Assembly: GCA_016213015.1 (NCBI GenBank)
Contig: JACRCE010000023.1
Location: 1-50,479, forward strand
Reading direction: 5' to 3'
DNA from: Deltaproteobacteria bacterium
GTDB taxonomy: Bacteria > Desulfobacterota > GWC2-55-46
Length of the DNA: 50,479 bases
Within the stretch, counting starts at the first letter, position 1, and each line of letters begins with the position of its first letter. Positions 7,978-45,501 of this stretch are shown here, in pieces. The notes beneath the pieces are model-generated. The model was not told where the DNA came from, made no database searches, and saw only the letters and a list, made by a program, of their open reading frames with translations. The translations under genes were made by a program, and so were the position numbers.

Positions 7978-8082
7978 GTTATGCCGTGCCTCATGCCGTG
8001 TTTTCAACCGACCGCTAAATCTACCACAGATACATCCTTGAATCAATCGTAGATGCGCATGATTTTTTTTGAATAAACATCT

Positions 8083-8102: not shown

Positions 8103-8154
8103 GGCTTGGCCGTTTTGCTGGAAATGATCGAGAGACGCCTGACAGGCATTGGCT

Positions 8155-20753: not shown

Positions 20754-22259
20754 ATGACAACGACAACTACAACGCAACGGCGCGTCCAATGGACGCTTGC
20801 GGCCATGATAACCGCGGCCTTCTTCTTCGCTTACGCAAAGGCGTTCGGAACGCTCGCATGGGCATGGTGGGACAACACGGTTTACTCGCACGGCTTTCTC
20901 GTCCCGCTCATAAGCGCCTATCTCGTCTATGCCGGAAAAAACTCGCTCAAGGGCATTACGGCATCTCCCTCGTATCTTTCCGGTTTGGGCGTCTTCCTGT
21001 CCGGGATCGCGATGCTCATCGCGGGAGAGGCCGCCGGGGTCATGGTCGTGCAGGAGTTGTCCATCGTCGTTACGCTTGCCGGCGCGATTGCCCTCGTATT
21101 CGGCATGAATCTTCTAAGGCTCATGTGGCTGCCCGTCGCGTATCTCCTCTTCATGCTCAGGTTCTGGGAGTTGATCACCGCGCATCTGCACTACCCGTTC
21201 CAGAACCTTTCGGCCTCGCTCGGCGCGAAGATATTGAGCCTCGTCGGGATTCCGGCATACCGTAATGGAATATTCATCGAACTGCCGAATATAACGCTTG
21301 AGGTGGCCGAGGTCTGCAGCGGGGTAAACTACCTCATCTCCGTGCTCGCCATAGGCATTCCGCTTGCCTGCCTTACGTTGAAGAGTATGCCGAAAAGATT
21401 GCTTCTCGTGTTCGGCGGCCTCATCATAGCCGGACTGGCGAACGCATTGAGGGTGGCGCTCATAGGCGTTCTCGCCCGATACAACGTGTCGGAGGCCCTC
21501 CACGGCCCCGGACACGTCCTGCAGGCCATGTTCGTGGCCGTGATAGGATTCATCGCGCTCTTCATCGGCGCATGGGCGCTCTCGTCATGGGAGAAAAAAG
21601 GCGCAAAGAGAGACGCCGAAAAAGACGACGCAAGGGCGCCGCTCGATGCAGGCGCGCCGTTGCCGCGCCTTCTTATATTGCCGTCAATCATAACCGTATC
21701 CATGCTCATCCTCGCCGGCGCGCAGGTCAACCTCCACCAGCCTTCGCCGAGACCGTTGGAGCGCGGGCTTCAGACGCTTCCCTACGCGATCGGCCAATGG
21801 TCCGGCTTTGACGATACGGCGCGGCCTACGGAGGCAGAGGGCATCGGCGCCGACGCGGAGCTTTCGAGGACATACCGGAACGGTCCCTACGCCGTGAACG
21901 TCTACGTCGCCTACCTTGCCTCCCAGACGCAGGGCAAGGAGATTGTTAATTACAAGACCGCCTCGCTCGAAAGAGGCTCCCGGCCGGTAACGCTCGGCAT
22001 AACCGGCAACGACGCGGTAGAGGCAAGACTCAAGGTATCGCCCGAAAAAACCGGCCTCAAGACCGTTCTCTACTGGTACGATCTGAACGGCCGCGCCGTG
22101 TCCCAAAGGCACTTTGCAAAGGCGTATACCGCTTATGACGCGATATTCAACGACCGGACAAACGGCGCCGTCATAATAATTACAACGGATGACGTGGACG
22201 CGAGGGTAGAGACTTTCGCCGCTTCCCTCATCCCGGAGTTACGCCGGATACTCAGGTAG
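20754..22259 (+). CDS. xrtA: Exosortase A fused to EpsI domain
   Basis: Exosortase is an integral membrane transpeptidase that cuts and anchors proteins with a C-terminal PEP-CTERM signal. Residues 1-280 are multi-helix, with catalytic Cys188 (EVAEVCSGVNYL), Arg233 (ANALRVALIG) and His254 (GPGHVLQA). After a charged linker (281-300) and another helix comes a periplasmic EpsI-type domain (about 330-500; segments YAIGQWSG, NVYVAYLASQTQGKEI, VLYWYDLNG). The 501-residue XrtA-EpsI fusion is common in EPS-linked systems. No protein with a PEP-CTERM tail was found in this window, so substrates must be encoded elsewhere. Confidence 0.95.
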   Translation: MTTTTTTQRRVQWTLAAMITAAFFFAYAKAFGTLAWAWWDNTVYSHGFLVPLISAYLVYAGKNSLKGITASPSYLSGLGVFLSGIAMLIAGEAAGVMVVQELSIVVTLAGAIALVFGMNLLRLMWLPVAYLLFMLRFWELITAHLHYPFQNLSASLGAKILSLVGIPAYRNGIFIELPNITLEVAEVCSGVNYLISVLAIGIPLACLTLKSMPKRLLLVFGGLIIAGLANALRVALIGVLARYNVSEALHGPGHVLQAMFVAVIGFIALFIGAWALSSWEKKGAKRDAEKDDARAPLDAGAPLPRLLILPSIITVSMLILAGAQVNLHQPSPRPLERGLQTLPYAIGQWSGFDDTARPTEAEGIGADAELSRTYRNGPYAVNVYVAYLASQTQGKEIVNYKTASLERGSRPVTLGITGNDAVEARLKVSPEKTGLKTVLYWYDLNGRAVSQRHFAKAYTAYDAIFNDRTNGAVIIITTDDVDARVETFAASLIPELRRILR

Positions 22260-27992: not shown

Positions 27993-29135
27993 ATGAAACT
28001 GATAATCGTAGTCGGAGCAAGACCGAACTTCATGAAGGCCGCGCCGATCCTTGACGCGATAAGCGAGCATAACCTTCATGCCGCCCGGCGCATCGAACGA
28101 CTGCTCGTTCACACCGGACAGCATTACGACGAAAAGCTCTCAAGGCTCTTCTTCGACGACCTCGGCATTCAAAAGCCGGACATAGACTTGGGCGTAGGCT
28201 CCGGCTCGCACGCCGAACAGACGGCGGAGGTAATGAAAAAATTCGAGAAGGTCTGCCTTGACGAGTCCCCGACGCACATACTCGTGGTCGGCGACGTGAA
28301 CTCCACGATAGCATGCGCCCTCGTGGCGGCCAAGCTCGGCATAAAGGTCATCCACGTGGAGGCGGGCCTGAGGAGTTTTGACAGGACAATGCCTGAAGAG
28401 ATAAACCGCGTGCTTACCGACGCCATATCCGACTATCTGTTCATCACGGAGAGAAGCGCCGAGGAGAATCTGATAAAAGAAGGCGTTGACAAGGGCAGGA
28501 TTTTTTTCGTCGGCAACGTGATGATAGACACGCTGATCAAGCACCGGCAAAAGGCGATGCGCTCGACCATACTCGACGTGCTCGGCCTCTCGACAACGGA
28601 GCCTGGCTACGGACTTTTGACGCTCCACAGACCGTCCAACGTGGACGACAAGGACGCGCTTGCAAACCTCCTCGGAGCGCTTGAAGCGATATCATCGAGA
28701 CTGCCCATCGTCTTTCCGGTTCATCCGCGCACAAGAAAGAGGATCGAGGAGTTCGGCTTAGGGGACAGGTTTGCAACGCCTCCCGCTGACAAACCAAAAC
28801 GCGGTCTCTACACGATTGACCCCCTTGGGTATCTTGATTTCCTGAGACTTATGAGCGAGGCGCGGGTCGTGCTCACCGATTCGGGCGGCATACAAGAGGA
28901 GACGACCGTGCTCGGCGTGCCATGCATAACGATGCGCGAAAACACGGAGCGGCCGGTAACCATAACGCACGGCACTAACTGCCTTGCGGGCACCGATAAG
29001 GATGCCATAATCAGAGCGGCGCTCGAAGCGCTGGACGGAAAAAATAACGCGCCCAAACCCGCGCCGCCGAAATGGGACGGGAACGCCGCTTTGAGGATCG
29101 TCGAGGTATTAACCTCGCTGACCAATAACCGATAG
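27993..29135 (+). CDS. wecB: UDP-N-acetylglucosamine 2-epimerase (non-hydrolysing)
   Basis: The enzyme converts UDP-GlcNAc to UDP-ManNAc for surface glycans. The 380-residue protein begins MKLIIVVGARPNFMKAAPIL and has HTGQHYDEKLS, VVGDVNSTIACALVA, HVEAGLRSFDRTMPEEINR and LTDSGGIQEETTVLGVP, all signature segments. Length is standard. It is the first gene after a repeat element and is followed at 12 bases by a ComA-like gene, suggesting that ManNAc or a derivative is part of the glycan treated by this subcluster. Confidence 0.95.
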   Translation: MKLIIVVGARPNFMKAAPILDAISEHNLHAARRIERLLVHTGQHYDEKLSRLFFDDLGIQKPDIDLGVGSGSHAEQTAEVMKKFEKVCLDESPTHILVVGDVNSTIACALVAAKLGIKVIHVEAGLRSFDRTMPEEINRVLTDAISDYLFITERSAEENLIKEGVDKGRIFFVGNVMIDTLIKHRQKAMRSTILDVLGLSTTEPGYGLLTLHRPSNVDDKDALANLLGALEAISSRLPIVFPVHPRTRKRIEEFGLGDRFATPPADKPKRGLYTIDPLGYLDFLRLMSEARVVLTDSGGIQEETTVLGVPCITMRENTERPVTITHGTNCLAGTDKDAIIRAALEALDGKNNAPKPAPPKWDGNAALRIVEVLTSLTNNR

Positions 29136-29147
29136 GAGGCTCCTTCC

Positions 29148-29960
29148 ATGAAAAAAACAAAGACCAAACGCATCCACACTTATGACTACCTGAAACTCAT
29201 CGGGGTGCCTGATATGCCGGCGCGTCTCTCCCCTTTCGACCCGGGATACGACCCTGTTACGCTCATAAGCCATCTTGAGCAGAGCGCTCACCTCATATCG
29301 TGCCTGAAGATCTCGATGGCCTGCTGGCAGGTGGCGAACGAACGCTCAACTATCGCAAAGATAAAGGCGGCGCGACGTCTGAAGATACCGGTATGCACCG
29401 GCGGAGGGCCGTTCGAGATAGCCGTGCAGTTCGGCAAACTGCCGGAGTTTCTTGACCTCGCCGCCGGTCTCGGCGTAACGCGGATAGAGGCCGGAGAGGG
29501 CTTTACCGACATGCCGCTCAAGCCCGAACAGGTAATCAAACTCGCGCGCTCGCGCGGTCTTGAAGTCCAGTTCGAGATAGGCAAGAAGCACGAAGGCGCG
29601 TTCAAAAAAGACGTGGTTGAAGAGCTTATCGATCAAGGCAAGAGATGGCTCGGCGCCGGGGCCGCGCAGATAGTGGTGGAGGCAAGGGAGAGCGCGCAGG
29701 GGATCGGCGCGTTCGACGACAAGGGAAGGTTGAATGCAAAGGTGGCCGATAGATTCGCTGAAGGCTTCGGCATGGCTACGGCCGTATTCGAGGCCCCTAA
29801 CAAGGCAAGCCAGTTCGCCCTGCTCAATCACTTCGGGCCTCAGGTCTATTTAAGCAACGTCAGGATAGAGGAGATACTCCGCGTGGAGATATACAGACGC
29901 GGCCTTCACTCGGACGCGTTCCAGCATGACAACCTTAGGCCGAAGGGGCCGGGCAGATGA
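29148..29960 (+). CDS. ComA-like phosphosulfolactate synthase
   Basis: ComA adds sulfite to phosphoenolpyruvate to make (R)-phosphosulfolactate, known from coenzyme M synthesis and from sulfolactate-making bacteria. The 270-residue protein shows the family segments GGGPFE (85-90), EIGKK (143-147), VEARES (177-182), FEAPNKASQ (214-222), GPQVYLSN (230-237) and LRVEIYRRGLHSD (244-256). The N-terminal third is divergent: the usual KPR...G and DKG elements are replaced by PARLSPFDPGYDP. The substrate could therefore differ. The start follows AGGAGG. It overlaps a radical SAM gene by ATGA, and a ComB-like gene comes next but one, which supports a shared pathway. Confidence 0.82.
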   Translation: MKKTKTKRIHTYDYLKLIGVPDMPARLSPFDPGYDPVTLISHLEQSAHLISCLKISMACWQVANERSTIAKIKAARRLKIPVCTGGGPFEIAVQFGKLPEFLDLAAGLGVTRIEAGEGFTDMPLKPEQVIKLARSRGLEVQFEIGKKHEGAFKKDVVEELIDQGKRWLGAGAAQIVVEARESAQGIGAFDDKGRLNAKVADRFAEGFGMATAVFEAPNKASQFALLNHFGPQVYLSNVRIEEILRVEIYRRGLHSDAFQHDNLRPKGPGR

Positions 29961-31342
29961 ACATCACGCTCATACAGCCTTTCACCGGAGGAACCGACGT
30001 AGAGCCTCCGCACAGCCTTGCGTGCATATTCGCCGCTCTGGACAAGGCCGGGCATAGATGCACCCTTATAGACCTCCAGCAGTGCAAGGTGCGCGAGCGC
30101 TGGGAGGAGATATTCAAAAACACCCCGGTTGATCTCGTGGGCCTGACCGGCATGACGCCGCAGGTACAGGACGCGCACGAAATAGCGGCCAGAGTAAAGG
30201 CATCGAGGCCGGACGTACGGATAATCCTCGGGGGCGTTCACGCCACGCTTCTCCCCGAACAGACGCTCAAGGAGTTTCCATTTTTCGACATACTCGTAAT
30301 CGGCGAGGGAGAGGACACGGTCGTCGAGTTGTCTTCAAGGCTTGAAGACCGCCTTCCGTATGACGACGTGGCCGGGATCGCGTACCGCAAGGACGGCTCG
30401 ATCGTAATAACGCCGCCGAGGCCGCGCATAACAAACCTCGATTCCCTGCCGGATCACCACGCCTATTACGACTTCGACTTCTACCTGAAAAACAACAGCT
30501 TCGAGACAAGCGACAAGGCCATTTCTCTTATAGTCTCAAGGGGCTGCCCGTACAACTGCCAGTTCTGCGCCACGAGAAATTTCTGGACGCTCAAATACAA
30601 CAACAAATCGGTTGACAAGGCGTTGGGCGAAATACGCGGCGTCATGAGGCGCGGGGCCGAGTATATAAAGTTCCGCGACTCGACCTTCGTCATAAATAAA
30701 AAATGGGTGCGCGAATTCTGCGAGCGGATAATAAAGGAAAAACTTCGCTTCAGGTGGGCGGCTAACGCAAGGGTCGATCTCGTTGACTACGACCTTTTCA
30801 AGCTCATGAAAAAGGCCGGTCTCGACACGATCTGCTTCGGCGTGGAGAGTGGCAGCCAGCGGATGCTCGACTTCTACGGAAAAGGCGTAACCATAGAGCA
30901 GATTGAGAAGGCCTTCGCCGTTTGCAAAAGACTGAGGCTCCGCACCGGCGCATACTACATGCTCGGCGCCCTGACCGAGACCAGAGAGGAAATGGACGCG
31001 ACATTCCGGCTTGCCAAGAGACTGAACGCCGCGTGGAGCTGGTGCTTCCTGTTCATGCCGCTGCCCGGGTCGGAGTTATACCAGTATTATATAGACCAAG
31101 GCTGCACATTCGACTACAGCAGGATCAGGAGCGACAAGGCGGCCTTTTCAAGCGCCGGATACTCCATCGCCGAGCTTGAGGAGAAGCGCGCCGGATGGTA
31201 TCAGGAACTCAACAAGAGGCCGAACAGGCTATCAAGCGGCATCAACGCCCTCCTCGACGTCCGCTCGATCTACGACCTCAGGCGTGTAACGCGAAAGGTG
31301 AGGCGTTTTTGCGGCCGCATGCTGAGGCGCTTGCCGGTCTAA
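29957..31342 (+). CDS. B12-binding-type radical SAM protein
   Basis: The 461-residue protein has an N-terminal B12-binding-like Rossmann domain (MNITLIQPFTGG, VDLVGLTGMTPQ, VRIILGGVHATLLPE, about 1-140). The radical SAM core follows, with the CxxxCxxC cluster in SRGCPYNCQFCATRNFW and downstream FGVESGSQRMLDFYGKG. This is the layout of class B methylases and related C-C or C-P bond enzymes. The classical DxHxxG cobalamin ligand motif is not evident. It lies between the ComA-like and ComB-like genes and overlaps the former, so it likely acts on the same metabolite or on the group derived from it. Reaction unknown. Confidence 0.87.
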   Translation: MNITLIQPFTGGTDVEPPHSLACIFAALDKAGHRCTLIDLQQCKVRERWEEIFKNTPVDLVGLTGMTPQVQDAHEIAARVKASRPDVRIILGGVHATLLPEQTLKEFPFFDILVIGEGEDTVVELSSRLEDRLPYDDVAGIAYRKDGSIVITPPRPRITNLDSLPDHHAYYDFDFYLKNNSFETSDKAISLIVSRGCPYNCQFCATRNFWTLKYNNKSVDKALGEIRGVMRRGAEYIKFRDSTFVINKKWVREFCERIIKEKLRFRWAANARVDLVDYDLFKLMKKAGLDTICFGVESGSQRMLDFYGKGVTIEQIEKAFAVCKRLRLRTGAYYMLGALTETREEMDATFRLAKRLNAAWSWCFLFMPLPGSELYQYYIDQGCTFDYSRIRSDKAAFSSAGYSIAELEEKRAGWYQELNKRPNRLSSGINALLDVRSIYDLRRVTRKVRRFCGRMLRRLPV

Positions 31343-31366
31343 AAAATATTAGATTCGAGAGGTACA

Positions 31367-32074
31367 ATGCCAAGAACCGTAATAATCGACTGTTTCCCTG
31401 AGAGCGCCGAGCGATACCGTTCGGGATACGCCGTGGTGGCGATAGACGTCATACGCGCCTCGACTACCATTGCGACAGCCCTCTCGCTCGGCAGGCGCGT
31501 ATTTCCGGTGAAGACGACGGACGAGGCGTTCATACTCGCGGACAAGCTCCATGAGCCGCTTCTTGTGGGCGAGATCGGCGGCAACGTGCCTTACGGCTTC
31601 GAGATGACCAACTCTCCGGCGGATATAGCCGAACGCGCGGACATCGCAAGACCCATGATCTTCATATCCTCCTCCGGGACGCAGTTGATGCTCAACGCGG
31701 CCGGGAGCGAGGCCGTTTACGCGGGATGTTTCAGAAACTTCAGCGCCGTTGCGGAGCGCGTCGCGCTCAGACATGAGACGGTCGCCGTAATCGGGGCGGG
31801 CACGCGGGGACAGTTCAGGCGCGAGGATCAGATGGGATGCGCCCTCGTCGCTGAAAGGCTTGTCGAGCTGGGTTATACGCCGGGTTCGCGGCAGACCGAA
31901 GAGGCGATACTGAGGTGGAAGGGGCGCGACTTCAGTCTGATACGCTCAGGCAAAAGCGCCGAATATTTGAAGCGCACCGGGCAGGAGAGGGATCTCGAAT
32001 TCGTGCTCTCCCATATAGACGACCTGCAAACGACGCCACAACTCATAAAAAACGAATTCATAGGAGCCGTATGA
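31367..32074 (+). CDS. ComB-like 2-phosphosulfolactate phosphatase
   Basis: ComB removes phosphate from 2-phosphosulfolactate to give sulfolactate. The 235-residue protein has the family landmarks: AIDVIRASTTIATAL (25-39), GEIGG and GFEMTNSP (68-84), NFSAVAE (124-130) and GAGTRGQFRREDQMGCALV (143-161). The nucleotide/phosphate loop usually written TTNGT reads SSSGT here (101-105). Length fits. With the ComA-like gene two positions upstream it gives the first two steps from PEP plus sulfite. A repeat element begins five bases after the stop. Confidence 0.85.
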   Translation: MPRTVIIDCFPESAERYRSGYAVVAIDVIRASTTIATALSLGRRVFPVKTTDEAFILADKLHEPLLVGEIGGNVPYGFEMTNSPADIAERADIARPMIFISSSGTQLMLNAAGSEAVYAGCFRNFSAVAERVALRHETVAVIGAGTRGQFRREDQMGCALVAERLVELGYTPGSRQTEEAILRWKGRDFSLIRSGKSAEYLKRTGQERDLEFVLSHIDDLQTTPQLIKNEFIGAV

Positions 32075-32079
32075 CGATC

Positions 32080-32276
32080 AGGCTGCTGAAAACCCAAAGT
32101 TGACGAAGGCCGCTCAAATCTTCCCATTGCAGAAAAGAAAAGGCGCAATGGGAGCCCAGCCAGATGCAAGGCCCCCATGTAATAGGGGAGCGACGACTGC
32201 GGCGCACTTTGCTGTGCGCCGCAGTGAGGAGCGACGCAGACAACGCCGCAGATGGGCGTTTTTGAGCGGCCTGCTA
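32080..32276. repeat. Outer repeat B, copy without the 72-bp element
   Basis: Ends match the repeat at 6838-7044: AGGCTGCTGAAAACCCAAAG at the left and GGGCGTTTTTGAGCGGCCTGCTA at the right. The right end finishes on the A of the ATG that starts the ATP-grasp gene. In the middle, where the other copies carry the 72-bp element, a different hairpin occurs (32196-32225: ACTGCGGCGCAC paired with GTGCGCCGCAGT). Confidence 0.7.
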
Positions 32277-33487
32277 TGAAGATACACGACAGCTCAACGC
32301 CGGTAGTGCTGGTAAACTGCAAGCTCGCCTCTCTCGGCGTAATGCGAAGCCTAGGCAGCCTCGGTGTAACCACCTATGGGGTAGATGCGGACCTACGCTC
32401 TCCCGCCATGCTCTCAAGGTACTGCGCAGGCAGATTCCAGATGAGCCTCACCGCTGAAAACAGCACAGCCTTCCTTGAATACCTCCTGAAGATAGGCGCC
32501 GGCATCGGCAGGAAGGCCATCTTAATCCCCACGTCGGACGAGACGAGCGTGTTCGTGGCCGAACACAGCGAGGCCCTCGGCGCTCGCTACATCTTCCCAA
32601 GGAACAAGCCGGAGCTTATCTCGGCCCTGATGCACAAAAAGGACATGTACTATCTTGCCAAACACTACGATGTGCCCACCGCTTACACGGAATTTCCCAA
32701 GGGCCTCGCGGACGTCGAGACCTACGTCAAGAAGGCGGTCTTCCCGGTGATGGTCAAGGGCATACTCGGCAACCTCCTCGCGCTTCGCACGGGCGTCAAG
32801 ATGGCGATAGTTCACACCCCTGAAGAGCTTATCGAAACATACAAACTCCTTGAAGACCCAGACTCGCCCAATCTGATGTTTCAGGAGTACATACCCGGCG
32901 ACGACGATCAGATATACATCTTCAACGGCTACTTCGACGAAAATTCGGACTGCCTTGCCGCCTTCACCGGGCATAAGATACGCCAGTTCCCGGTGCACGT
33001 CGGATGCTCCTCCCTCGGGATATGCAAATGGAACAAGGAGGTCGCCGACATCACCACGAGATTCATGAAGGCCGTGGGATACAAGGGCATACTCGACATA
33101 GGCTACCGCTTCGACGCGAGGGACGGCCGATACAAGATGCTCGACATAAACCCGCGCATCGGCCAGGCGTTCAGGCTGTTCCTGTCAGACAACGGCATGG
33201 ACGTCGCGCGCGCGCTTTATCAGGACCTCACAGGACAGAAGACCCTGCCGATAAAACCGAGGGAAGGCCGGAAGTGGATAATCGAGGACTTCGACATCGT
33301 CTCATCCTACCATTATTATAAAGAGGGCGCGCTTACGTTCGGCTCGTGGTGTAAGTCCTTTCGCGGGCTGGAGGAAGGCGCGTGGTTTTCATTAAAAGAC
33401 CCGTGGCCGTTCACGGTAATGGCGGGCGGCCTCACAAAGAAATCTTTCGTGTACATGGCCAAGAGACTCGGCCTGTTCAAGCGGTAA
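32276..33487 (+). CDS. ATP-grasp carboxylate-amine ligase
   Basis: The 403-residue protein has the three-domain ATP-grasp layout: a pre-domain (PVVLVNCKLASLGVMRSLG, ILIPTSDETSVFV), the ATP-binding domain (FPVMVKGILGNLLALRTGVK, NLMFQEYIPGDDDQIYIFN) and the metal-binding end (GRYKMLDINPRIGQAFRL). It resembles the predicted carboligases related to D-aspartate ligase. Such enzymes join a carboxylate to an amine with ATP. The frame is open eight residues upstream, but that part is repeat sequence, so ATG 32276 is used. A second ATP-grasp gene follows, and the upstream ComA/ComB-like pair could supply a carboxylate. The acceptor is unknown. Confidence 0.87.
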   Translation: MKIHDSSTPVVLVNCKLASLGVMRSLGSLGVTTYGVDADLRSPAMLSRYCAGRFQMSLTAENSTAFLEYLLKIGAGIGRKAILIPTSDETSVFVAEHSEALGARYIFPRNKPELISALMHKKDMYYLAKHYDVPTAYTEFPKGLADVETYVKKAVFPVMVKGILGNLLALRTGVKMAIVHTPEELIETYKLLEDPDSPNLMFQEYIPGDDDQIYIFNGYFDENSDCLAAFTGHKIRQFPVHVGCSSLGICKWNKEVADITTRFMKAVGYKGILDIGYRFDARDGRYKMLDINPRIGQAFRLFLSDNGMDVARALYQDLTGQKTLPIKPREGRKWIIEDFDIVSSYHYYKEGALTFGSWCKSFRGLEEGAWFSLKDPWPFTVMAGGLTKKSFVYMAKRLGLFKR

Positions 33488-33494: not shown

Positions 33495-34598
33495 ATGCTT
33501 CTTTTGAAGATGGAACGCATGGCCATGCGCCTGAAAAAGACATGGGTTGATTGGCGAGGCGCATCGGGGCAGGTATATTTCGAGCACCGCGTCGCCCAGT
33601 ACCATGAGATGTGGGGCAAGGTGGCTCATGCGCTCGGCGGAGAGCTGAAGGCATTGAACGACGGCATCTGGGAGTTGACGGCGCGAGGCTCTAAGACGCG
33701 GATCAACAACTATCAATTGGAATTCGACAACCCGGTGGTCCTTGCCATGGCAGGGGACAAACCCTTGATGCACGAGCTTCTTTCATCAGCCGGATTGTGT
33801 GTGCCCGAGCATAAGGTCTTTAACCTTTATGCTCTCGACGTTGCCTACGACTTTCTTGAGAAGCACCCGAAGGGCTCAGTCATAAAGCCCGGCAACGGCT
33901 ACGGCGGCAAGGGCGTAACCACGCACGTCCTGTCGCGCAAAGAGGCTCGAAGGGCCGCTATCCTCGCCTCTCTATACGGTTCAACTCTAATGATAGAGGC
34001 GCAGATACCGGGCGAGTCATACAGACTTCTCGTGCTCGGCGGCCGCATGGTTCACGCGGTATGCAGGAGGGGACCGCGCCTGACCGGAGACGGCTCATCA
34101 AGGGTCTCTGAGCTTATCAGGACGGAAAACGAGAGACGCAAAAACGCGAGACAAGCCATTCTCGACAAGGATAGAGACATGGTTTTCACGCTTGATTATC
34201 AGGGGCTTGACATGGGATCAATCCCTGCAAAAGGCCGGACATTTCCGATAAAAAGCGTCAACGACCCCGAACGCAAACAAGCCGAGGTAAGAACGGTGTA
34301 CAACGAAGACTCTACGACGCTTGTTTGCGAATCCATCAAGAAAGACGCCGAAATGGCCGCCGCCGTGCTCGGCTCCGAGTTCGTGGGCGTGGACGTTATT
34401 ACCACAGACCCGTCAAGGCCGCTCAAGGAGACCGGCGGCATCATCAACGAAGTGAACACCACGCCCGCGCTTCACCACCACTACTTCCCGGGCGATGACG
34501 AATACCCGCAAACCGCGCTCCTTGCCGTTGAAATGTTACTGAATAAAAAAAAGGATGAAAGCGCTGGAGCAAGCGCCCGCTCCTCCTCCAAGCGATGA
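33495..34598 (+). CDS. ATP-grasp ligase, cyanophycin-synthetase-like
   Basis: The 367-residue protein has an ATP-grasp core: VIKPGNGYGGKGVTTHV (about 135-151), MIEAQIPGESYRLLVLGGRM, RRGPRLTGDGSSRVSELIRT and the metal-binding end GGIINEVNTTPALHHHYF. The GDGSSR segment is like that of cyanophycin synthetase and glutathione-type ligases, so it probably forms an amide from a carboxylate. The pre-domain (1-120) is not recognised. ATG 33495 is seven bases after the previous stop; 33510 and 33519 are possible alternatives. It overlaps the CapA-like gene by ATGA, suggesting related jobs. Confidence 0.85.
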   Translation: MLLLKMERMAMRLKKTWVDWRGASGQVYFEHRVAQYHEMWGKVAHALGGELKALNDGIWELTARGSKTRINNYQLEFDNPVVLAMAGDKPLMHELLSSAGLCVPEHKVFNLYALDVAYDFLEKHPKGSVIKPGNGYGGKGVTTHVLSRKEARRAAILASLYGSTLMIEAQIPGESYRLLVLGGRMVHAVCRRGPRLTGDGSSRVSELIRTENERRKNARQAILDKDRDMVFTLDYQGLDMGSIPAKGRTFPIKSVNDPERKQAEVRTVYNEDSTTLVCESIKKDAEMAAAVLGSEFVGVDVITTDPSRPLKETGGIINEVNTTPALHHHYFPGDDEYPQTALLAVEMLLNKKKDESAGASARSSSKR

Positions 34599-36547
34599 AA
34601 AGCGACGGTTCATTCACGATTGCGGCGGTAGGCGACTGCATGCTCAGCCGCGAGGTCGAGAAACACTTCAGGGCCGCGCCTCAGGATTTCCTTTTCAATG
34701 ATATAAAGCCTATCCTTGCCGGGCATGACCTGATTATCGCAAACCTTGAAAACCCGGTGGGCACAAAAGGGACGCCGGACGAGGTTCAAGACCCGCACGT
34801 TACATTCAGAAGCCACCCCGACACGCTCAGGTTATTGAAGGAGCTCGGTGTCAACGCGGTATCGCTCGGCAACAACCACATGCTCGACTACGGCGAGGCC
34901 GCCCTCATAGAGACCCTTGAGGCCCTTGACGCTTACGGCATTCGCCACGCCGGGGCCGGACGCAACTATGAGGAGGCCAACAGGCCGCTTGTCCTTGAAC
35001 TATCAGGCCGGAACATCGCCATCCTCTCTCACGTCTTCATATACTCCGCAAGCACAAGGATGGCGACGCCATCAAGCCCGGGGGTAGCGGACCACCGCAT
35101 CGGCAGAATACTCGCCAACATAAGGGAGATGAAAAGGAACGGCTGCCTTGTCATCGTAACCCTGCACTGGGGAATGGAGTATTCATTCTACCCCCTGCCC
35201 TACCAGATGAAGCAGGCGCGCATGATGATAGACAACGGGGCATCCCTTATACTCGGGCACGGCCCGCATTATCCTCAAGGCATGGAGCGTTACAAGGACG
35301 GACATATCGTCTACAGCATGGGCAACTTCATCTTCGACGAGCCGCATATCTTCTCCAACAGGTCGTTCATATACGGCGCAAAGATGAAAAAAAACGGCAT
35401 CGTCAGCGACTCGTGCCTGCATCCGGTGCGAATAAAAGACCATCTGCCTCACCCGCTTCAAGGCGCGGACAAGGCCGGGTTCGTAGGATTCATAGAACAC
35501 TTGAGCGGCCTTTATCCGAAGAAATCGAAGACCTTCTGGAAGAACGTCAACAACAGGTATTTAAACGACGTCATGGGGCGCGTCATCAGGATGCGCTCAT
35601 TGAAATTTCTTATGCTGCCTCCGGCCTCATTTTACGCGAGCATAGGGTTTGGAAACTTTATCAGGAAGTTAAAGCTCTCCAACCTCTCGGATATCGCCAA
35701 ATACCCGGTCAAACAGGCATCCAGCACGGGGAAAGCGCTCGTTCGACGCGCCCTGCCGCTTGAAATGAGAAAGCGCGTTGCCATCAAGATAAACAAACGG
35801 AAGTGGCTCGGAGGGAGAGGTCATCTTGCGCTCGGACTCGTGCGCGACCTGAGCGAGGTCGATCCTAAGGCATTTCACAAGTTTCTGTGGGAGAACCATA
35901 TCGCCGGATACGCCCAGTGGTACGACGATTCGCGCTCGCTCTTCGACTTCTCGAAGATGGAACCGTCGAGGGTCGAGTTTTTCAATGATTTGAAGTCCGT
36001 AATCAGAGACATGAAGCTCAGCCTTGCCGATTTTCGTTCAGCCCTTGACGTGGGTTGCTCGCAGGGGTATCTCCTCAGATACATCGAGACCGAGCTATTC
36101 CCCGGCGCTCAAGAGATCGTCGGCATAGACATAGACGCAAAGGCCGTTGAGAAGGGCGCGACGCATCTTAAAAACCTCGCCTCAAAGGTGCGCCTTGTGG
36201 CCGGAGACATGGAGTCCATCGGGAAACTCTTAGGAGGCAGGAAGTTCGACCTTGTCTTTGCCGCGGGCGTCCTCAGCTACTTGAACGAAGCCGACGCCCA
36301 GAAAGTGGTAAACGAGATGATGCAACGCACCGGAAGACTCATTGCGCTCGTCGGCATCGCGAACAAGGACGTGGACAACAATACCCTCTCGTCGTCAATA
36401 CCGTCGCCTTGCCATGCCAAGCAGTGGATCCACAACTTCGAGGCCTTGATTGAAAGGGCGGGCGGCTCCGTCGTATTCAGCCGATGGGAGGGCGCGCGCA
36501 ACTTCAACAATCAGACGCTCGACATGGTCTTTGCAACCCCGAAATGA
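34595..36547 (+). CDS. CapA-like domain fused to SAM-dependent methyltransferase
   Basis: Residues 1 to about 270 are a CapA/PgsA-type calcineurin-like phosphoesterase domain (AAVGDCMLSREVEKHF, ANLENPVGT, NAVSLGNNHMLDYG, VTLHWGMEYSFYPLP, GHGPHYPQGME). CapA takes part in poly-gamma-glutamate capsule formation and export. After a basic linker comes a class I methyltransferase domain (about 440-650) with SALDVGCSQGYLLRYIE, VGIDIDAKAV and FDLVFAAGVLSYL. There is no signal peptide or clear anchor, so the CapA part would be cytoplasmic, unlike PgsA. No CapB or CapC gene is present. The fusion is unusual; linked to two ATP-grasp ligases, it may handle an amide-linked group. Confidence 0.85.
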   Translation: MKSDGSFTIAAVGDCMLSREVEKHFRAAPQDFLFNDIKPILAGHDLIIANLENPVGTKGTPDEVQDPHVTFRSHPDTLRLLKELGVNAVSLGNNHMLDYGEAALIETLEALDAYGIRHAGAGRNYEEANRPLVLELSGRNIAILSHVFIYSASTRMATPSSPGVADHRIGRILANIREMKRNGCLVIVTLHWGMEYSFYPLPYQMKQARMMIDNGASLILGHGPHYPQGMERYKDGHIVYSMGNFIFDEPHIFSNRSFIYGAKMKKNGIVSDSCLHPVRIKDHLPHPLQGADKAGFVGFIEHLSGLYPKKSKTFWKNVNNRYLNDVMGRVIRMRSLKFLMLPPASFYASIGFGNFIRKLKLSNLSDIAKYPVKQASSTGKALVRRALPLEMRKRVAIKINKRKWLGGRGHLALGLVRDLSEVDPKAFHKFLWENHIAGYAQWYDDSRSLFDFSKMEPSRVEFFNDLKSVIRDMKLSLADFRSALDVGCSQGYLLRYIETELFPGAQEIVGIDIDAKAVEKGATHLKNLASKVRLVAGDMESIGKLLGGRKFDLVFAAGVLSYLNEADAQKVVNEMMQRTGRLIALVGIANKDVDNNTLSSSIPSPCHAKQWIHNFEALIERAGGSVVFSRWEGARNFNNQTLDMVFATPK

Positions 36548-37926: not shown

Positions 37927-39416
37927 CTGACACAAACGACGCATCACCCGCAATAACGGCGGGGCATCACGCCGCGCCGCCGGCCGGCTTGAGGCGCAAG
38001 GTCGTGAGCGCGGTGTTCTGGGTCGGCGCGACGAAGCTCTTAGGGCAGATCATCTCATGGGTCATAACGGTCTGGGTGGCGAGGCTCTTATCGCCTGACG
38101 ACTACGGGCTGATGGGCATGTGCTTCATCGTAATCGGCTTTGTTACGCTATTCAACGAATTCGGCCTCGGCTCGGCCATCATCCATAACAAGAGTCTCGG
38201 CAAGGAAGACCTTTCTTCCATATACTGGCTCGTAATCCTTATAAACGCCGCGCTGTACGCCGCGGCATGGCTTGCCGCCCCGTTGATGGCGGTCTGGTTC
38301 AATGAACCCGGCCTTACCGCGCTCCTTCGCCTCATCGCGCTGAGTCTCATTATAAACGCGCTGGGGTTGGCGCATGTCAACATGCTTGCCAAGGAGCTTC
38401 AATTCAAGCGAACCTCTATTGCCGAGTTTGCGGGAAACCTTGCCGGAGGGATTGCGACGCTCGCCTTTGCGCTTTACGGATACGGGGTATGGAGCCTCGT
38501 ATACGGGAATCTCGCCCTCGCAACGGTCAAGAACGTCGCGTTTTTCATCTGCCTTCCGTGGCTGCCGGGCCTGCACATGAACGTCTTCAGGATAAAGGCG
38601 ATGTTGAACTTCGGATCCAAGGTCGCGGCGGCCCGCCTGCTGTGGTACATATACTCGAACGCGGACTTTCTGATAGCCGGCAAACTCCTCGGCAAGACGC
38701 TCCTCGGGTTTTATTCCATCGCCTTTCAGTTCGCGTCGATACCGCTGGACAAGATCGTCTCCATGCTGACGCAGATCGCATATCCGGGCTTTTGCGAGGT
38801 TCAACACGACAACGTGCTGATGAGGAGATACTTCCTCAAGACCATAAGGCTCGTGGCCTTTGTAACCTTCCCGCTTTTCCTCGGGATCTTCGTCGTGGCC
38901 GACGACGCGGTGAGGGTCTTCCTGACGGAAAAGTGGGCGCCGGTGATACTGCCGCTTCAGATACTATGCGTCGTCTCGACGCTTCGCGCCATAAACGCCA
39001 TGAACGCGCCCCTTGTCGTGGCAAAGGGACGACCGGGGCTGTCCATGCTCAACAACCTGATATTCGCGCTCGTGCTTCCGATTGCGTTTTATATCGGCTC
39101 TTTTTACGGGCTTGAGGGTTTTTCATACTCATGGCTCATAGTCTTCCCAATAATCTTCCTGATATCGGCGTCAATATCGATAGCAACCATAGAGCTGAGC
39201 ATGATAGAATATCTGAAGACGCTTAACCACCCGTTATTCGCAACCGTGTTCATGGTAACAACGGTCATGGTCGTTAAATACGCGGCCCACGATATGAATA
39301 AACTGCCGAGGCTCGCCCTGTCATGCCTTGCCGGCGCCATTGCCTACGGCCTTTACTATCTCATCGTCAACAGGGCCATGCTCGACGAGGCAAGGGCGAT
39401 GTTTCGCAGAGACTGA
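37923..39416 (+). CDS. Wzx-type lipid-linked oligosaccharide flippase
   Basis: The 497-residue protein has about 12-14 hydrophobic segments and belongs to the MOP exporter superfamily: VVSAVFWVGATKLLGQIISW, LLSPDDYGLMGMCFIVIGF, FGLGSAIIHNKSLG and the later VFLTEKWAPVILPLQIL. It probably flips the finished undecaprenyl-linked unit across the inner membrane. Overlap with the GT4 gene by ATGA indicates coupled translation. No O-antigen-type polymerase is seen in the window to partner it. Confidence 0.92.
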   Translation: MTDTNDASPAITAGHHAAPPAGLRRKVVSAVFWVGATKLLGQIISWVITVWVARLLSPDDYGLMGMCFIVIGFVTLFNEFGLGSAIIHNKSLGKEDLSSIYWLVILINAALYAAAWLAAPLMAVWFNEPGLTALLRLIALSLIINALGLAHVNMLAKELQFKRTSIAEFAGNLAGGIATLAFALYGYGVWSLVYGNLALATVKNVAFFICLPWLPGLHMNVFRIKAMLNFGSKVAAARLLWYIYSNADFLIAGKLLGKTLLGFYSIAFQFASIPLDKIVSMLTQIAYPGFCEVQHDNVLMRRYFLKTIRLVAFVTFPLFLGIFVVADDAVRVFLTEKWAPVILPLQILCVVSTLRAINAMNAPLVVAKGRPGLSMLNNLIFALVLPIAFYIGSFYGLEGFSYSWLIVFPIIFLISASISIATIELSMIEYLKTLNHPLFATVFMVTTVMVVKYAAHDMNKLPRLALSCLAGAIAYGLYYLIVNRAMLDEARAMFRRD

Positions 39417-39426
39417 GCCGACACCC

Positions 39427-41121
39427 ATGAAGAACGCACATCCAATGCAAACGTTGCCGGACGCATTAAGGCCGGGCGGCACGTCCGTGATAAGGCTTCG
39501 CGTTACCGACGACATGGTCCGTAAATTCTCGGAACTCACGGGAGATAGAAGCCCGCTCCACGTCGAATCCGAGTTCGCCAGAAGGTCGATCTACCGCGGC
39601 GAGGTCGTGCACGGCATGCTTACGGTCGCCTTCATCGGAGCGCTCGACATGCTTGACGCGGCCAATCGTAATTGCCGCCTGACCTCTCTCAACGCTCAGT
39701 TCACCTCTCCGGTTTACGCGGGCGATACATTCGTCCTTACCGGCGTTGTCATTACCGTTGACCATGCGGCATCAAGCGCGTCAATCGAGTATACAGTAGA
39801 AAACACGCGAACGCGCATCGTCGTATGCAAGGGAGAGGCCGTTGTCAACTACCGCGGCGGCGCAAACGACGCCGCAACGCAAACGGCGGGCCGACCGTTC
39901 AGCTTGCCTGACGAGCCGCTTGAACCGATGGACGTCCGCTTTGAGAGAATAAGCAAAGGAGACCCGGACTCGATCCTCTTCTCGATAAAGGACGGCTCCA
40001 TCGCCGCGCTGAAATCAATACTATCCGAAGGCATTGAAGGCGCGCTTGAGTCGTCAACGGGGTTTCTCTCAGACCTGCTGTGCGTCCTGCTTTTTTCAAC
40101 GTCGGCAGGGATGCGCATCCCGGGCAGGCGCGCAACCTTCCTTGAATTCACCGCCTCGGTACGGGGAGAGATACGGCTTGATACGGCATACAAACTCAAC
40201 GGCATGGTCAGCCACGTCTCACGCGCCGGACGCATCATTAAAAAGACCGTCTCGATTACAGTAGGCGGTACGGACGCTTCTTTACTCGACGGCAAGGTCG
40301 CCGTGATCGTCAACCCGGATCATGCAAAGATGCCGGACATGAGACAGTTGAAGGACGATGCAATGGATCTTGGGATAAAAGGCAAGGTTGTCGTCGTAAC
40401 CGGCGCAAGTCGGGGCATAGGCGAGACGACGGCAAGGCTCTTTGCGCTCCACGGGGCAAAGGTGGCAGTGAACTACTTCAGAGGAGAAACCGACGCCAAA
40501 CGGATTGTGGACGACATAACTTCAAGCGGCGGCGAGGCGCTCGCCATTGGCGCCGACGTTTCAGACGCCGGGCAGGTACGGGAGATGATAAGAAAGACCG
40601 TTGAGCGGTTTTCCCGCGTTGACATACTGGTCAACAACGCGGTGCGGGACTTCAAGCCGACGCCGTTTCTGAAACTCGACTGGGACGACCTTCAAAAGGA
40701 CATGGACGTTACGCTCAAAGGCGCATTCAACTGCTGCAAGGAGGTCATACCGCTGATGCTCTCGTCCGGCGGCGGCAGGATAATCAACGTCTCCACCATT
40801 GCCGTGGAAACGCCTCCGCCCAACCAGTCAAAGTACGTCTGCTCGAAATCCGCGCTTGTCGGGCTGACAAGGAGCCTCGCCGTGGAGTTCGCCTCCAACA
40901 ACATACAGGTCAATTGCGTGGTTCCAAACTTCGTGGAGACCGATCTCGTCGGCCACATACCCGAAGTCTACAGGAAAAAGATCGCGGACGACACCCCCCT
41001 GCGAAGAAACTCCACGGCAACGGACGTGGCCAAGGCCGTCATCTTCCTTGCCTCGTCCTATTCGTCGTTCACGACCGGACAGAAGGTGATGGTTACGGGC
41101 GGGGCGCCGCCTTATCTCTAA
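39427..41121 (+). CDS. MaoC-like hydratase/SDR reductase fusion
   Basis: The 564-residue protein has three parts. Residues about 15-140 are a MaoC-like hot-dog domain (FSELTGDRSPLHVESEFA, GEVVHGMLTVAFIGAL). Residues about 155-305 look like a second hot-dog-type or related domain without a clear motif. Residues 318-564 are a FabG-like SDR (VVVTGASRGIGETTARLF, DILVNNAV, INVSTIAVE, YVCSK, with Tyr and Lys spaced as usual). Enoyl-hydratase and ketoacyl-reductase activities in one chain suggest tailoring of a short acyl group on a carrier protein, and acyl carrier proteins are nearby. ATG 39427 is used; open sequence upstream is the flippase shadow. Confidence 0.85.
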   Translation: MKNAHPMQTLPDALRPGGTSVIRLRVTDDMVRKFSELTGDRSPLHVESEFARRSIYRGEVVHGMLTVAFIGALDMLDAANRNCRLTSLNAQFTSPVYAGDTFVLTGVVITVDHAASSASIEYTVENTRTRIVVCKGEAVVNYRGGANDAATQTAGRPFSLPDEPLEPMDVRFERISKGDPDSILFSIKDGSIAALKSILSEGIEGALESSTGFLSDLLCVLLFSTSAGMRIPGRRATFLEFTASVRGEIRLDTAYKLNGMVSHVSRAGRIIKKTVSITVGGTDASLLDGKVAVIVNPDHAKMPDMRQLKDDAMDLGIKGKVVVVTGASRGIGETTARLFALHGAKVAVNYFRGETDAKRIVDDITSSGGEALAIGADVSDAGQVREMIRKTVERFSRVDILVNNAVRDFKPTPFLKLDWDDLQKDMDVTLKGAFNCCKEVIPLMLSSGGGRIINVSTIAVETPPPNQSKYVCSKSALVGLTRSLAVEFASNNIQVNCVVPNFVETDLVGHIPEVYRKKIADDTPLRRNSTATDVAKAVIFLASSYSSFTTGQKVMVTGGAPPYL

Positions 41122-41130
41122 AAGGTTGCT

Positions 41131-42036
41131 ATGATCAAAAAACTCCTTAAAAAAACATTGAACGAAAAACAGAAGCGCTGCGTCAAATCGAAGTACAACG
41201 CGATGCGCGGTTTTGTGATCAACTCTCTCCTGAGCTATAACGCCGACGACCTGAAGGCGGCCATTAAGGAGCTTGGCATACGAGAGACGGACACGGCGCT
41301 TGTCCACTCCAACTCCAACCCTGACAGCGGATTCAAGGGCGCGCCGTCGGACGTCGTCGAGTGTCTGGCCAAGCTGCTCGGCGAAAACGGAAATCTTCTC
41401 ATGGTCTCCATTCCGTTCAGGGGAACGACGTTCGACCATCTGTCCAAAGGGAAGCCCTTTCACAGAGACAGGACGATCTCCATGATGGGACTCATTACCG
41501 AGATATTCAGGAGAAGGCCCGGCGTGCTCAGGAGCCTTCACCCTACCCACCCGGTGCTTGCGTTGGGAAAAGACGGCGTGTGGCTGACGACCGGACATGA
41601 AAGCTGCGCTGCGCCGTGCGGAGCAGGAACGCCGTTTGAAAAATTCCTCCAGCTTGACGGAAAGATACTGTTCTACGACGTGCCGTTCGGCGCGATCACC
41701 TTCTTCCATTACGTCGAGGATGCTGTAAAGGAACTGCTTCCGTTCAACGTCTATCACGACAAGCCGTTCACCGTTAAGGCGTTCGACGAGCGCAAACAGG
41801 AACACGTGGTTACGGTCTATGCCTTCAACCCCGTTGTAACGAGAAACGCTTACGCGGTCGAGGAGGAGATGAAGCAACGGGGGCTTGTCAAATACGGCAA
41901 GGTCGGCAACTCAAGGCTGATACTGGTGAACGCGAAGGACGTGCTGAGGTGCCAGACCGAGATGATAAAGGCCGGGCGCCTCCCTTACGGGGAGACATCG
42001 TCAAGCGCAGGCAAGGGGATAACACAAAATGGATGA
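41131..42036 (+). CDS. AAC(3)-family N-acyltransferase
   Basis: The 301-residue protein fits the aminoglycoside 3-N-acetyltransferase fold: DTALVHSNSNPDSGF, NLLMVSIPFRGTTFD, SLHPTHPVLALGKDG and HESCAAPCGAGTPFEKF. Members in sugar and flagellin glycosylation loci acylate amino sugars, so antibiotic resistance is not the expected role here. It is followed, with an 8-base overlap, by an acyl carrier protein gene, which suggests that an acyl-ACP rather than acetyl-CoA may be its donor. That is an inference. Confidence 0.87.
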   Translation: MIKKLLKKTLNEKQKRCVKSKYNAMRGFVINSLLSYNADDLKAAIKELGIRETDTALVHSNSNPDSGFKGAPSDVVECLAKLLGENGNLLMVSIPFRGTTFDHLSKGKPFHRDRTISMMGLITEIFRRRPGVLRSLHPTHPVLALGKDGVWLTTGHESCAAPCGAGTPFEKFLQLDGKILFYDVPFGAITFFHYVEDAVKELLPFNVYHDKPFTVKAFDERKQEHVVTVYAFNPVVTRNAYAVEEEMKQRGLVKYGKVGNSRLILVNAKDVLRCQTEMIKAGRLPYGETSSSAGKGITQNG

Positions 42037-42280
42037 CAACGAAAAACTGCGCCGATTCATCTTGAGCGAGGTCTGCCCTGAGGCCGGACTAAACGATCTT
42101 TCCGACGACGAGCCGCTTATCAGCTCAGGGCTTGTCGATTCGCTCGGCATCCTCAAGATACTCTCCTTTCTCGACGACGAGTTCAACATAAACATCGCCT
42201 CGGACGAGATAAAGCACGACAACTTCTCCACCGTCGGCACGATCTGCACCCTCATCGAAAAGAACAGAAATGCAGGTTAG
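42029..42280 (+). CDS. Acyl carrier protein
   Basis: The 83-residue acidic protein has the phosphopantetheine site in SGLVDSLGILKIL (Ser of DSL) and the usual four-helix pattern (SFLDDEFNINIASDEI). It overlaps the AAC(3)-like gene upstream and the FemAB-like gene downstream, so the three are probably co-translated and work together in moving an acyl or aminoacyl group. Confidence 0.92.
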   Translation: MDDNEKLRRFILSEVCPEAGLNDLSDDEPLISSGLVDSLGILKILSFLDDEFNINIASDEIKHDNFSTVGTICTLIEKNRNAG

Positions 42281-43376
42281 CGTAATAAGCGACAGGGACG
42301 GCCTTCTATCCGCAGCCGGAGAATGGACGAGCCTTCTTGAAAAAAGCTCCGGCTGCGCCGTATCTCTGACGCCGGAATGGACAGCGGCATGGTGGGACAA
42401 CTTCGGCGCTGATAACAGGATGCATCTGGTGGTTGTCCGCCACGGCGGCGCTCTGGTGGGGGTCGCCCCCATGATGGAGGCCGCGGCGAGTTACCGCGGC
42501 GTCCATATAAGAAAGATCACCATGATGGCAAACGGCCACTCCCCGGTCGTCGAATTTGTCACGGACAGGGCTATGGATGCGGAGGTGCAAAACGCCATCC
42601 TGAGCCACCTTGAAGCCCTGCCCGGGATTGATATGATAGAGTTGCCGCACCTCAACGACAACGGGAGCGCCTGCGCGCCTGTCCTCGACTACATCAAGGA
42701 AAGGGGGCTGCGCTACGGGATAAAGCGCGGACTCGAATCTCCCTATATACCGATAGACACAGATTGGGAGACTTTTTTCAGGAGCAAGCATCAGAAGTTC
42801 AGGAAGGCTATCAGGCACAAGCTCAACAGGGCCGCCAAATGCGGCGGCGTCAGCGTGGCAAAGGCGACGATCATGGGCGCGGCGGACCATGCCGTGGAGG
42901 AGATGTTCAGTATCTCCGGCAAAAGCTGGAAAAAGAAGGCCGGCACAGACCTCTTAAGCGACGGCAACGCGAGCGGGTTCTACAGATCTCTGTGCGACGC
43001 GCTCGGACCAAAGGGCCTCATATCCATATGGCTGCTGAGAAAAGACTCCGTCCCGATAGCGTTCGAGTTCCATATCACGCACAACGGGGTCGTCTATCCG
43101 CTGCGCGCCGACTACGACGAGTCCTATGCGGACATCTCGCCCGGCTCCGTGCTTGAGTACAGTATAGCAAAGAGCCTGTTCGAGGAGGCCCGTGCGCGGG
43201 AATATTACTCATGCGGCCATACCTACATGTACCTGCTCAACTGGTCAAAGCTTACAAGGAAACACGTAACCATCGAGATATTCAGCGGGAATATACGTTC
43301 AACAACGCTCCATATCATCGAATACAAGATCATCCCATGCCTTCGCAGGCTCGGCATGAATAAGGTACTATCATGA
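42270..43376 (+). CDS. GNAT/FemAB-like acyltransferase (Acetyltransf_6 type)
   Basis: The 368-residue protein shares its layout with the gene at 22275: N-terminal LTPEWTAAWWDNFG, central basic stretch HQKFRKAIRHKLNRA and C-terminal IAFEFHITHNGVVYPLRADYD and REYYSCGHTYMYLLNW. It overlaps the acyl carrier protein gene by 11 bases and the radical SAM gene by ATGA. An N-acyl transfer onto an amino sugar is likely, with an acyl-ACP donor possible. Confidence 0.82.
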   Translation: MQVSVISDRDGLLSAAGEWTSLLEKSSGCAVSLTPEWTAAWWDNFGADNRMHLVVVRHGGALVGVAPMMEAAASYRGVHIRKITMMANGHSPVVEFVTDRAMDAEVQNAILSHLEALPGIDMIELPHLNDNGSACAPVLDYIKERGLRYGIKRGLESPYIPIDTDWETFFRSKHQKFRKAIRHKLNRAAKCGGVSVAKATIMGAADHAVEEMFSISGKSWKKKAGTDLLSDGNASGFYRSLCDALGPKGLISIWLLRKDSVPIAFEFHITHNGVVYPLRADYDESYADISPGSVLEYSIAKSLFEEARAREYYSCGHTYMYLLNWSKLTRKHVTIEIFSGNIRSTTLHIIEYKIIPCLRRLGMNKVLS

Positions 43377-44530: not shown

Positions 44531-44540
44531 GAAATATCCG

Positions 44541-45257
44541 GTGATAGATAAACTGATGCATATAGCCGCAAGCGCCATCGCCGGGAGAGACGCCCTTGGG
44601 TTCCTGACAAAGGCGGCGAGGAAGGCCCAGCGTCTTGTCGTTTGCCGATCAGCGCGGTCCATCTGGTTTTACAGGACCCTGAAAGACCCCATCAAGCCGG
44701 TTCAGCCGGGGATGGATGTTGAGATGGTCTTTCTTGCGGAGGACAAGAGCGGGCTTATAGCCTGGCTCAAGGAGAACAGCCGGTCGTTCCCATGGATATA
44801 CATTGAAAAGGAAGTGGAATCGGCGTTGGCTAACGGGCACATATTCGGGTGCGTCCGCCGCAACGATGAAATAGCCGGGTATGTGAAAATAGGCATCGGG
44901 CCGACCTACATACACGACTTCGGCAGGACGATACGGTTCCCGGACGGCGTGGCGTTCATATACGATACCTTCGTGGCGCCTGAATACCGGGGCAAGCGTA
45001 TAGGCCTGTATGCGGTCAGCGGGGCGTTGAATCACCTCAAACGGGCCGGGTTCAAAGGGGTATGGTGCCACATCGAGGAGTGGAACTGCGCATCGCTCAA
45101 GACCTTCATGCGCGCCGGGTTTACCGAGGCGTCGAGGATAAGGTTTATGAGGGTGCTGGGCATGCCTTTGTACATAAGAGGCGACGGAAGGCCCATGATG
45201 AAGCTCGAACCTCTCCTTGAAGCACGCGGCAGGGCATCATACAATAGAGGACAGTGA
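44541..45257 (+). CDS. GNAT-family N-acetyltransferase
   Basis: The protein of about 238 residues has a GNAT fold in its second half: HIFGCVRRNDEIAGYVKIG, VAFIYDTFVAPEYRGKRIGL with the acetyl-CoA pyrophosphate loop (Y-R-G-K-R-I-G), and WNCASLKTFMRAGF. The first 80 residues are not recognised. GTG at 44541 is preferred because it lies just after the previous stop; ATG 44556 and an overlapping ATG at 44475 are alternatives. The stop overlaps the next acyl carrier protein region. Confidence 0.82.
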   Translation: MIDKLMHIAASAIAGRDALGFLTKAARKAQRLVVCRSARSIWFYRTLKDPIKPVQPGMDVEMVFLAEDKSGLIAWLKENSRSFPWIYIEKEVESALANGHIFGCVRRNDEIAGYVKIGIGPTYIHDFGRTIRFPDGVAFIYDTFVAPEYRGKRIGLYAVSGALNHLKRAGFKGVWCHIEEWNCASLKTFMRAGFTEASRIRFMRVLGMPLYIRGDGRPMMKLEPLLEARGRASYNRGQ

Positions 45258-45259
45258 AG

Positions 45260-45499: not shown

Positions 45500-45501
45500 G
45501 C

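Follow-up and report, generated by a model that had tools for sequence, protein, structure and literature searches.

The 50,479-nucleotide contig JACRCE010000023.1, referred to here as the window, belongs to a deltaproteobacterial draft genome of 2.27 Mb (98.7% complete) and carries an exopolysaccharide (EPS) locus that includes genes of the families known for sulfolactate synthesis. A gene for a ComA-like protein of the phosphosulfolactate synthase family is preceded by a WecB gene and followed by genes for a B12-binding-domain radical S-adenosylmethionine (SAM) protein, a ComB-like protein of the 2-phosphosulfolactate phosphatase family and two ATP-grasp proteins, ATPg1 and ATPg2. Open reading frames are present at the coordinates listed for WecB and the ComA-like, radical SAM and ComB-like proteins (Table 1), and the order of these genes and of the two ATP-grasp genes is the one described in an earlier note on this DNA. 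Genome-wide, ComA and ComB are single-copy. The surroundings contain an exosortase, a FemAB protein and glycosyltransferases, together with Wza/Wzc-like, polyprenyl-glycosyltransferase and polysaccharide deacetylase genes read from the sequence. An assignment as an EPS/XrtA locus, made in the same note, is right in kind: the exosortase is of the XrtW type (NF038142, cut-off 425 bits), and the FemAB protein matches the XrtA-associated family TIGR03019 (370.5 bits).

A conserved ComA–ComB–ATP-grasp unit

The conserved unit at this locus, hereafter the module, is ComA–ComB–ATPg1, and it is present in several phyla. Scanning the window ComA against 84,980 species genomes retrieved 15 loci whose ComA is 60-76% identical, from metagenome-assembled genomes labelled Deltaproteobacteria, Zixibacteria, Nitrospira, Gammaproteobacteria, Chloroflexi, Thermomicrobiales, Polyangium and Bathyarchaeota; the Bathyarchaeota record and one Chloroflexi record, both on short contigs, may be misbinned. 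Profile searches added 11 loci, five from the Nitrospira and Zixibacteria samples and six from a sample around locus L063, for a total of 26. ComB is found in all 26 loci and the complete set of ComA, ComB and ATPg1 in 25, the sole locus without ATPg1 (L115) lying on a contig of 9.5 kb. ATPg2 is a frequent partner (10/26), as is a gene for a LarA-type protein (8/26). The radical SAM gene was found in none of the 26, which rules it out as a core member.

For comparison we used 17 loci of other ComA proteins as controls. Most of them are from the window's phylum, and they are not matched to the related loci in taxonomy. None of the controls has ATPg1 (25/26 versus 0/17, Fisher p 4e-11). At least two homologues of glycan genes lie near the module in 17 of the 26 loci and in none of the controls (p 1e-5). 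The test undercounts, since its set of glycan genes was drawn from the window and related loci, and Pfam profiles identify extra glycosyltransferases in L119 and L114. Loci without two glycan homologues are mostly on short contigs or in Chloroflexota or Myxococcota contexts. The earlier note had taken ComA, radical SAM and ComB as a trio accompanied by glycan and ATP-grasp genes; the ComA/ComB pair and its association with both kinds of partner are borne out, whereas the radical SAM gene drops out, and ATPg1, which had been drawn outside the unit, belongs to its core.

The distances of ComA, ComB and ATPg1 correlate over 21 loci (r 0.82, 0.80 and 0.85; none of 2000 permutations gave values as high), as expected for a unit inherited or transferred together, with a contribution from shared host ancestry. 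Members of the module clade were counted at more than 380 bits, well separated from the next scores at about 160. By this measure the window's class has 2 carriers among 63 genomes, the Desulfobacteraceae-side phylum sample 1 among 296, the Nitrospira-side phylum sample 5 among 296, the Zixibacteria sample 3 among 132, the Acidiferrobacteraceae order 2 among 57 and the sample around L063 7 among 301. A phylum sample taken around L052, which lies in a Desulfobacteraceae genome, contained the very contigs and positions found for the window's own phylum, and the two therefore belong to one phylum. The second member in the window's class (G312) belongs to the same family as the window genome. This patchy distribution suggests that the module has been scattered by horizontal transfer. 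In plasmid records, ComA identity was about 26-33% among the matches listed, and no match to the radical SAM protein was found.

In methanogens, coenzyme M synthesis begins with the reactions of ComA and ComB, its first and second steps, and the pair might serve that pathway, or sulfolactate breakdown, and stand beside EPS genes by chance. The constant third gene, however, encodes an ATP-grasp ligase and not a sulfolactate dehydrogenase or sulfopyruvate decarboxylase. No ComC or ComDE was recognized among the module genes examined, the search being confined to these and not extended to the rest of the genome. We regard this explanation as highly improbable.

Table 1 Features of the window around the ComA–ComB–ATP-grasp module
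Feature	Coordinates	Strand	Evidence
XrtW-type exosortase/EpsI	20754..22259	+	NF038142 533 bits
WecB, non-hydrolysing UDP-GlcNAc 2-epimerase	27993..29135	+	TIGR00236 325.9 bits, cut-off 210
ComA-like, phosphosulfolactate synthase family, module core	29148..29960	+	PF02679 153.6 bits, cut-off 25.2, E 7.9e-45
B12-binding-domain radical SAM protein, window-specific accessory	29957..31342	+	PF02310 E 1.3e-20, PF04055 E 4.9e-20; CPYNCQFC (CxxxCxxC) at residue 197
ComB-like, 2-phosphosulfolactate phosphatase family, module core	31367..32074	+	PF04029 129.5 bits, cut-off 26.4, E 1.3e-37
ATPg1, ATP-grasp ligase, module core	32252..33487	+	full-length ATP-grasp fold (model)
ATPg2, second ATP-grasp protein, cyanophycin synthetase-like, frequent partner	33495..34598	+	PRK14016 E 5.8e-44; 7lgm E 2.8e-23
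CapA/PGA_cap-like domain fused to SAM-dependent methyltransferase domain	34595..36547	+	PF09587 E 3.6e-70, Methyltransf_25

Enzymes of the module

The match of the ComA-like protein to its Pfam family is far beyond chance. Together with its relatives it forms a single clade of 27 proteins (support 100/99), the deeper placement of which is unsure because of long branches elsewhere in the tree. The predicted structure (predicted local distance difference test score, pLDDT, 88) is most similar to the Methanocaldococcus jannaschii phosphosulfolactate synthase (1qwg), with Z 29.1, a root-mean-square deviation of 2.5 over 249 residues and TM-scores of 0.82 and 0.88. The Bacillus subtilis protein (1u83) follows with Z 23.8, and the next unrelated barrel with Z 15.5. 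The invariant polar residues of the family are kept, namely D31, K54, K71, E90, E114, E143, K147, E178, R180, E181, E215, K219, Q222, N237, E247, R250, R251 and D256. Among them, the invariant K147 corresponds to K137 of M. jannaschii, which we take to be the proposed general acid. The ComB-like protein keeps the motifs IDVIRAS, GE, GF..TNSP and GTRGQFRRED when aligned with 1vr0 and 2yyv.

ComA proteins are also found in other settings. Eight ComA–ComB pairs in the window's phylum (L033-L040) lie without an ATP-grasp partner or recognized glycan genes and may represent a different use of the two enzymes. A single genome of the same phylum (G198) has eight ComA-family matches, which suggests that the family has expanded beyond sulfolactate. 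In the related locus L114, a D-2-hydroxyacid dehydrogenase-like gene (7340-8377) lies two genes ahead of ComA.

ATPg1 probably starts at 32276, where its relatives begin (MKIHDSSTP). Its model (pLDDT 90) has the ATP-grasp ligase fold over the whole chain, with 2pn1 as the best structure match (Z 27.3, 295 residues) and further matches to PurK, PurT, the L-amino acid ligase 3vot and PylC. Residues D282, D298, N300 and R302 are invariant in 24 sequences and, by pattern and position, are probably the usual metal- and ATP-binding residues. ATP-grasp enzymes form an acyl phosphate that is then transferred to a nucleophile, mostly an amine. Since identity to known ligases is only 8-17%, the acceptor of ATPg1 is not readable from homology. 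ATPg2 resembles the ATP-grasp part of cyanophycin synthetase.

An MR_MLE-type gene directly follows ATPg1 in L059 (12957-14117) and L061 (about 12606-13928), both of which are without recognized glycan genes. It was considered as a second racemase and rejected, as the L059 profile leads to sugar-acid dehydratases.

A LarA-type partner

In eight loci (L052, L053, L054, L058, L102, L103, L105 and L118) a gene for a LarA-type protein, a putative nickel racemase with a Lar_N domain (PF09861, E 1.3e-39), lies near ATPg1. In the PDB, representatives match a malate racemase (6d6z, E 3.2e-33) better than lactate racemase (3e-23), and their best NCBIfam matches, always below cut-off, are the LarAH5 and LarAH6 malate racemases (NF052593/NF052595). 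The equivalents of the active-site residues R75, H108, K184 and H200 are kept. Malate is the carboxylate analogue of sulfolactate, with a carboxylate in place of the sulfonate at C3, and the likeness to malate racemases therefore gives indirect but independent support for a sulfolactate-like product. A partner of this type would suit a 2-hydroxy acid whose C3 carries an anionic group.

LarC was tried as a test of LarA function and does not discriminate, being found in 5 of 8 genomes with a module LarA and in 12 of 19 without. In two control loci, L041 (10046-11398) and L044 (12467-13735), a homologue of LarA lies a few kb or less from a ComA outside the module clade.

The radical SAM gene

The start of the radical SAM gene overlaps the ComA stop by four bases (ATGA), 24 bases separate it from ComB, and its base composition, including that at third codon positions (GC3), is that of its neighbors. 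The overlap and the matching composition indicate a real member of the operon, with no obvious chimera. These features speak for the first proposal, a single pathway of ComA, radical SAM and ComB with sulfolactate modified by the radical SAM enzyme ahead of its attachment. We consider this improbable: the gene's absence from the other loci argues against it, as do the low identity of its closest relatives in the window's class (32-35%, none higher) and the presence of unrelated genes between ComA and ComB elsewhere, namely ATPg2 in L049 and L051 and, by our own reading, a transposase-like frame in L104. As the protein reaches no equivalog cut-off, it cannot be given a specific reaction. The gene is best described as a local accessory with a putative tailoring role, seen among module loci in this one genome. 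Conspicuous as it is, it is a trap for interpretation, as it lies outside the conserved unit.

Proposed pathway and alternatives

From the computed gene content, conservation, fold and clade we infer a sulfite substrate, a sulfolactate product and a ligation through an acyl phosphate. The ComA-like enzyme would attack C3 of phosphoenolpyruvate (PEP) with an anionic nucleophile, sulfite being the most likely one, to give 2-phospho-3-sulfolactate; we consider this step, with sulfite as the nucleophile, probable. The ComB-like phosphatase would then release 3-sulfolactate, in which we place slightly more confidence. Given a carboxylate product, ATPg1 probably activates it as the acyl phosphate and couples it to a nucleophile, with a likelihood similar to that of the first step. 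This nucleophile would most likely be an amine on a sugar or amino acid, an acceptor to which we give an even chance. For the whole route from PEP and sulfite through sulfolactate to ligation by ATPg1, the case for and the case against appear balanced. These gradings are judgements and were not calculated.

Where a LarA-type racemase is encoded, it may first invert C2, and methyltransferases or the second ATP-grasp enzyme may act further. In the window genome, the radical SAM enzyme encoded between ComA and ComB may tailor the product. The conjugate would probably end on a surface glycan in most members; that it forms part of the EPS of the window organism is possible, if somewhat doubtful. 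The amino-sugar acceptor, the presence in EPS and the role of the radical SAM enzyme are speculative. A further-reaching reading, in our view rather less likely than not, is that several phyla possess a dedicated module by which sulfolactate, in either stereoisomer and in some members with a LarA-type sulfolactate racemase, is amide-linked by an ATP-grasp enzyme to amino sugars of surface glycans, giving sulfonated EPS without sulfotransferases.

A number of observations count against the proposed pathway. Both synthesis proteins fall below the equivalog cut-offs of their families (ComA-like, archaeal TIGR03849, 150.9 of 280 bits; ComB-like, TIGR00298, 103 of 175 bits). A stem of about three changes per site parts the module ComA clade from other ComA proteins. 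Clade-wide replacements (M. jannaschii to window) are T76 to G87, D142 to F152, D157 to W167, Q211 to S221 and R244 to H254, at positions that are nearly constant in ComA outside the clade, and S105 to G116. No acceptor was identified for ATPg1. No recognized glycan gene lies near the module in L059, L060, L061, L117 or L118. LarA is absent from the window's own genome, and LarC had no match in three Zixibacteria genomes with a module LarA, which leaves the activity of the LarA-type protein unsure. Finally, the LarA-type proteins carry Q or N at the position of LarA His174. A LarA branch with Asn at this position has been described, its substrate not being known (PMC12611868); we regard the module proteins, with this substitution, as candidate sulfolactate racemases.

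As conserved ComA positions differ, the nucleophile or substrate could differ as well. The module might then make another C3-substituted 2-hydroxy acid, with ComA adding a different nucleophile to PEP, ComB removing the phosphate and ATPg1 ligating the product, and the long stem, the replacements and the missed cut-offs all fit such a scheme. However, the module ComA proteins keep every invariant acidic or basic residue of their family, a ComB of the sulfolactate family always accompanies ComA, and the partner resembling malate racemases implies that C3 bears an anionic group, as in sulfolactate. We consider another nucleophile unlikely. With the invariant residues kept and others replaced throughout the clade, the ComA enzymes probably retain their chemistry at PEP in a pocket that is altered in part.

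The five loci without recognized glycan genes, and the mobility suggested by the patchy spread, bear on a further possibility, that sulfolactate becomes part of a soluble conjugate such as an osmolyte, a cofactor or a secreted small molecule and that the glycan genes are nearby through co-transfer in islands. Against this stands the excess of glycan homologues over the controls, which recurs in unrelated phyla and gene orders. A soluble conjugate appears rather unlikely to us.

Neighboring genes

WecB adjoins ComA also in L101 (order WecB-ComA-ComB-ATPg1-ATPg2) and is not a universal neighbor. Homologues of the methyltransferase part of the fusion protein downstream of ATPg2 occur near the module in L049, L050, L051, L055, L062 and L104. 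The methyltransferase stands alone in the related loci and is fused to the CapA/PGA_cap domain in the window. The CapA/PGA_cap domain weakly resembles MslH, a lasso-peptide epimerase (NF038314, 73 bits). Further downstream (39328-48350), profiles identify FkbH-domain and AAC(3)-like N-acyltransferase-like genes, and MaoC/SDR-like and FabH-like genes were read from the sequence. These are possibly a second acyl-substituent pathway of the same locus.

Significance and comparison with known systems

The roles known so far for sulfolactate are those of a precursor in coenzyme M synthesis, a metabolite of spores and a sulfonate found in the environment. If our proposal is correct, bacteria also use it as a building block for ligation onto other molecules, of which cell-surface glycans are the probable targets. 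This would provide a way to anionic, sulfonated polysaccharides that does not use sulfotransferases, and a biological source of organosulfonates in sediments and groundwater. It would also give a function to an uncharacterized ATP-grasp subfamily and a testable substrate, sulfolactate, to an unassigned LarA branch.

The enzymes belong to known families, and the module itself appears to be undescribed as far as the open-access literature shows, which is not proof. Neither the module nor its link to glycan loci or its LarA association was found in open-access full texts, a scope that excludes most subscription papers. Within it, nothing joined sulfolactate with lactate racemase or with ATP-grasp, nor exosortase, ATP-grasp and exopolysaccharide with one another; phosphosulfolactate synthase with exopolysaccharide, and sulfolactic acid with polysaccharide, gave only unrelated papers. 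Phosphosulfolactate phosphatase with gene cluster yielded nothing of use as judged by titles and abstracts, and sulfolactate did not appear in the papers listed by a broader search. The texts of three LarA papers (PMC11770544, PMC7583248 and PMC12611868) contain no word starting with "sulfo".

In Vibrio cholerae O1, the tetronate pathway produces an O antigen with an acylated amino sugar by means of an AMP (adenosine monophosphate) ligase and a carrier protein. The idea of a small hydroxy acid on an amino sugar is shared with our proposal, and the enzymes differ, as no ComA, ComB or ATP-grasp protein takes part. Among the ATP-grasp carboxylate-amine ligases (2pn1/PRK12767, PurK, 3vot, PylC), ATPg1 shares the full-length fold (Z 23-27) and differs in its low sequence identity; no characterized member of its subfamily was found. 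The LarA malate racemases (LarAH5/LarAH6 and Mar2, 6d6z) are the best profile and PDB matches of the racemase-like gene in the eight loci, from which the module proteins are set apart by scores below the family cut-offs and by Q or N at His174.

B. subtilis YitD (1u83) is likewise a bacterial member of the ComA family. In Bacillus spores, sulfolactate is an end product and remains free, whereas the module includes a ligase gene. The coenzyme M pathway of methanogens shares with the module the ComA fold of the M. jannaschii enzyme, the invariant residues and the phosphatase partner. In contrast to that pathway, the module has a ComA of a distinct clade on a long stem and an ATP-grasp ligase as its third gene, and its setting is that of bacterial glycan loci rather than of a methanogen.

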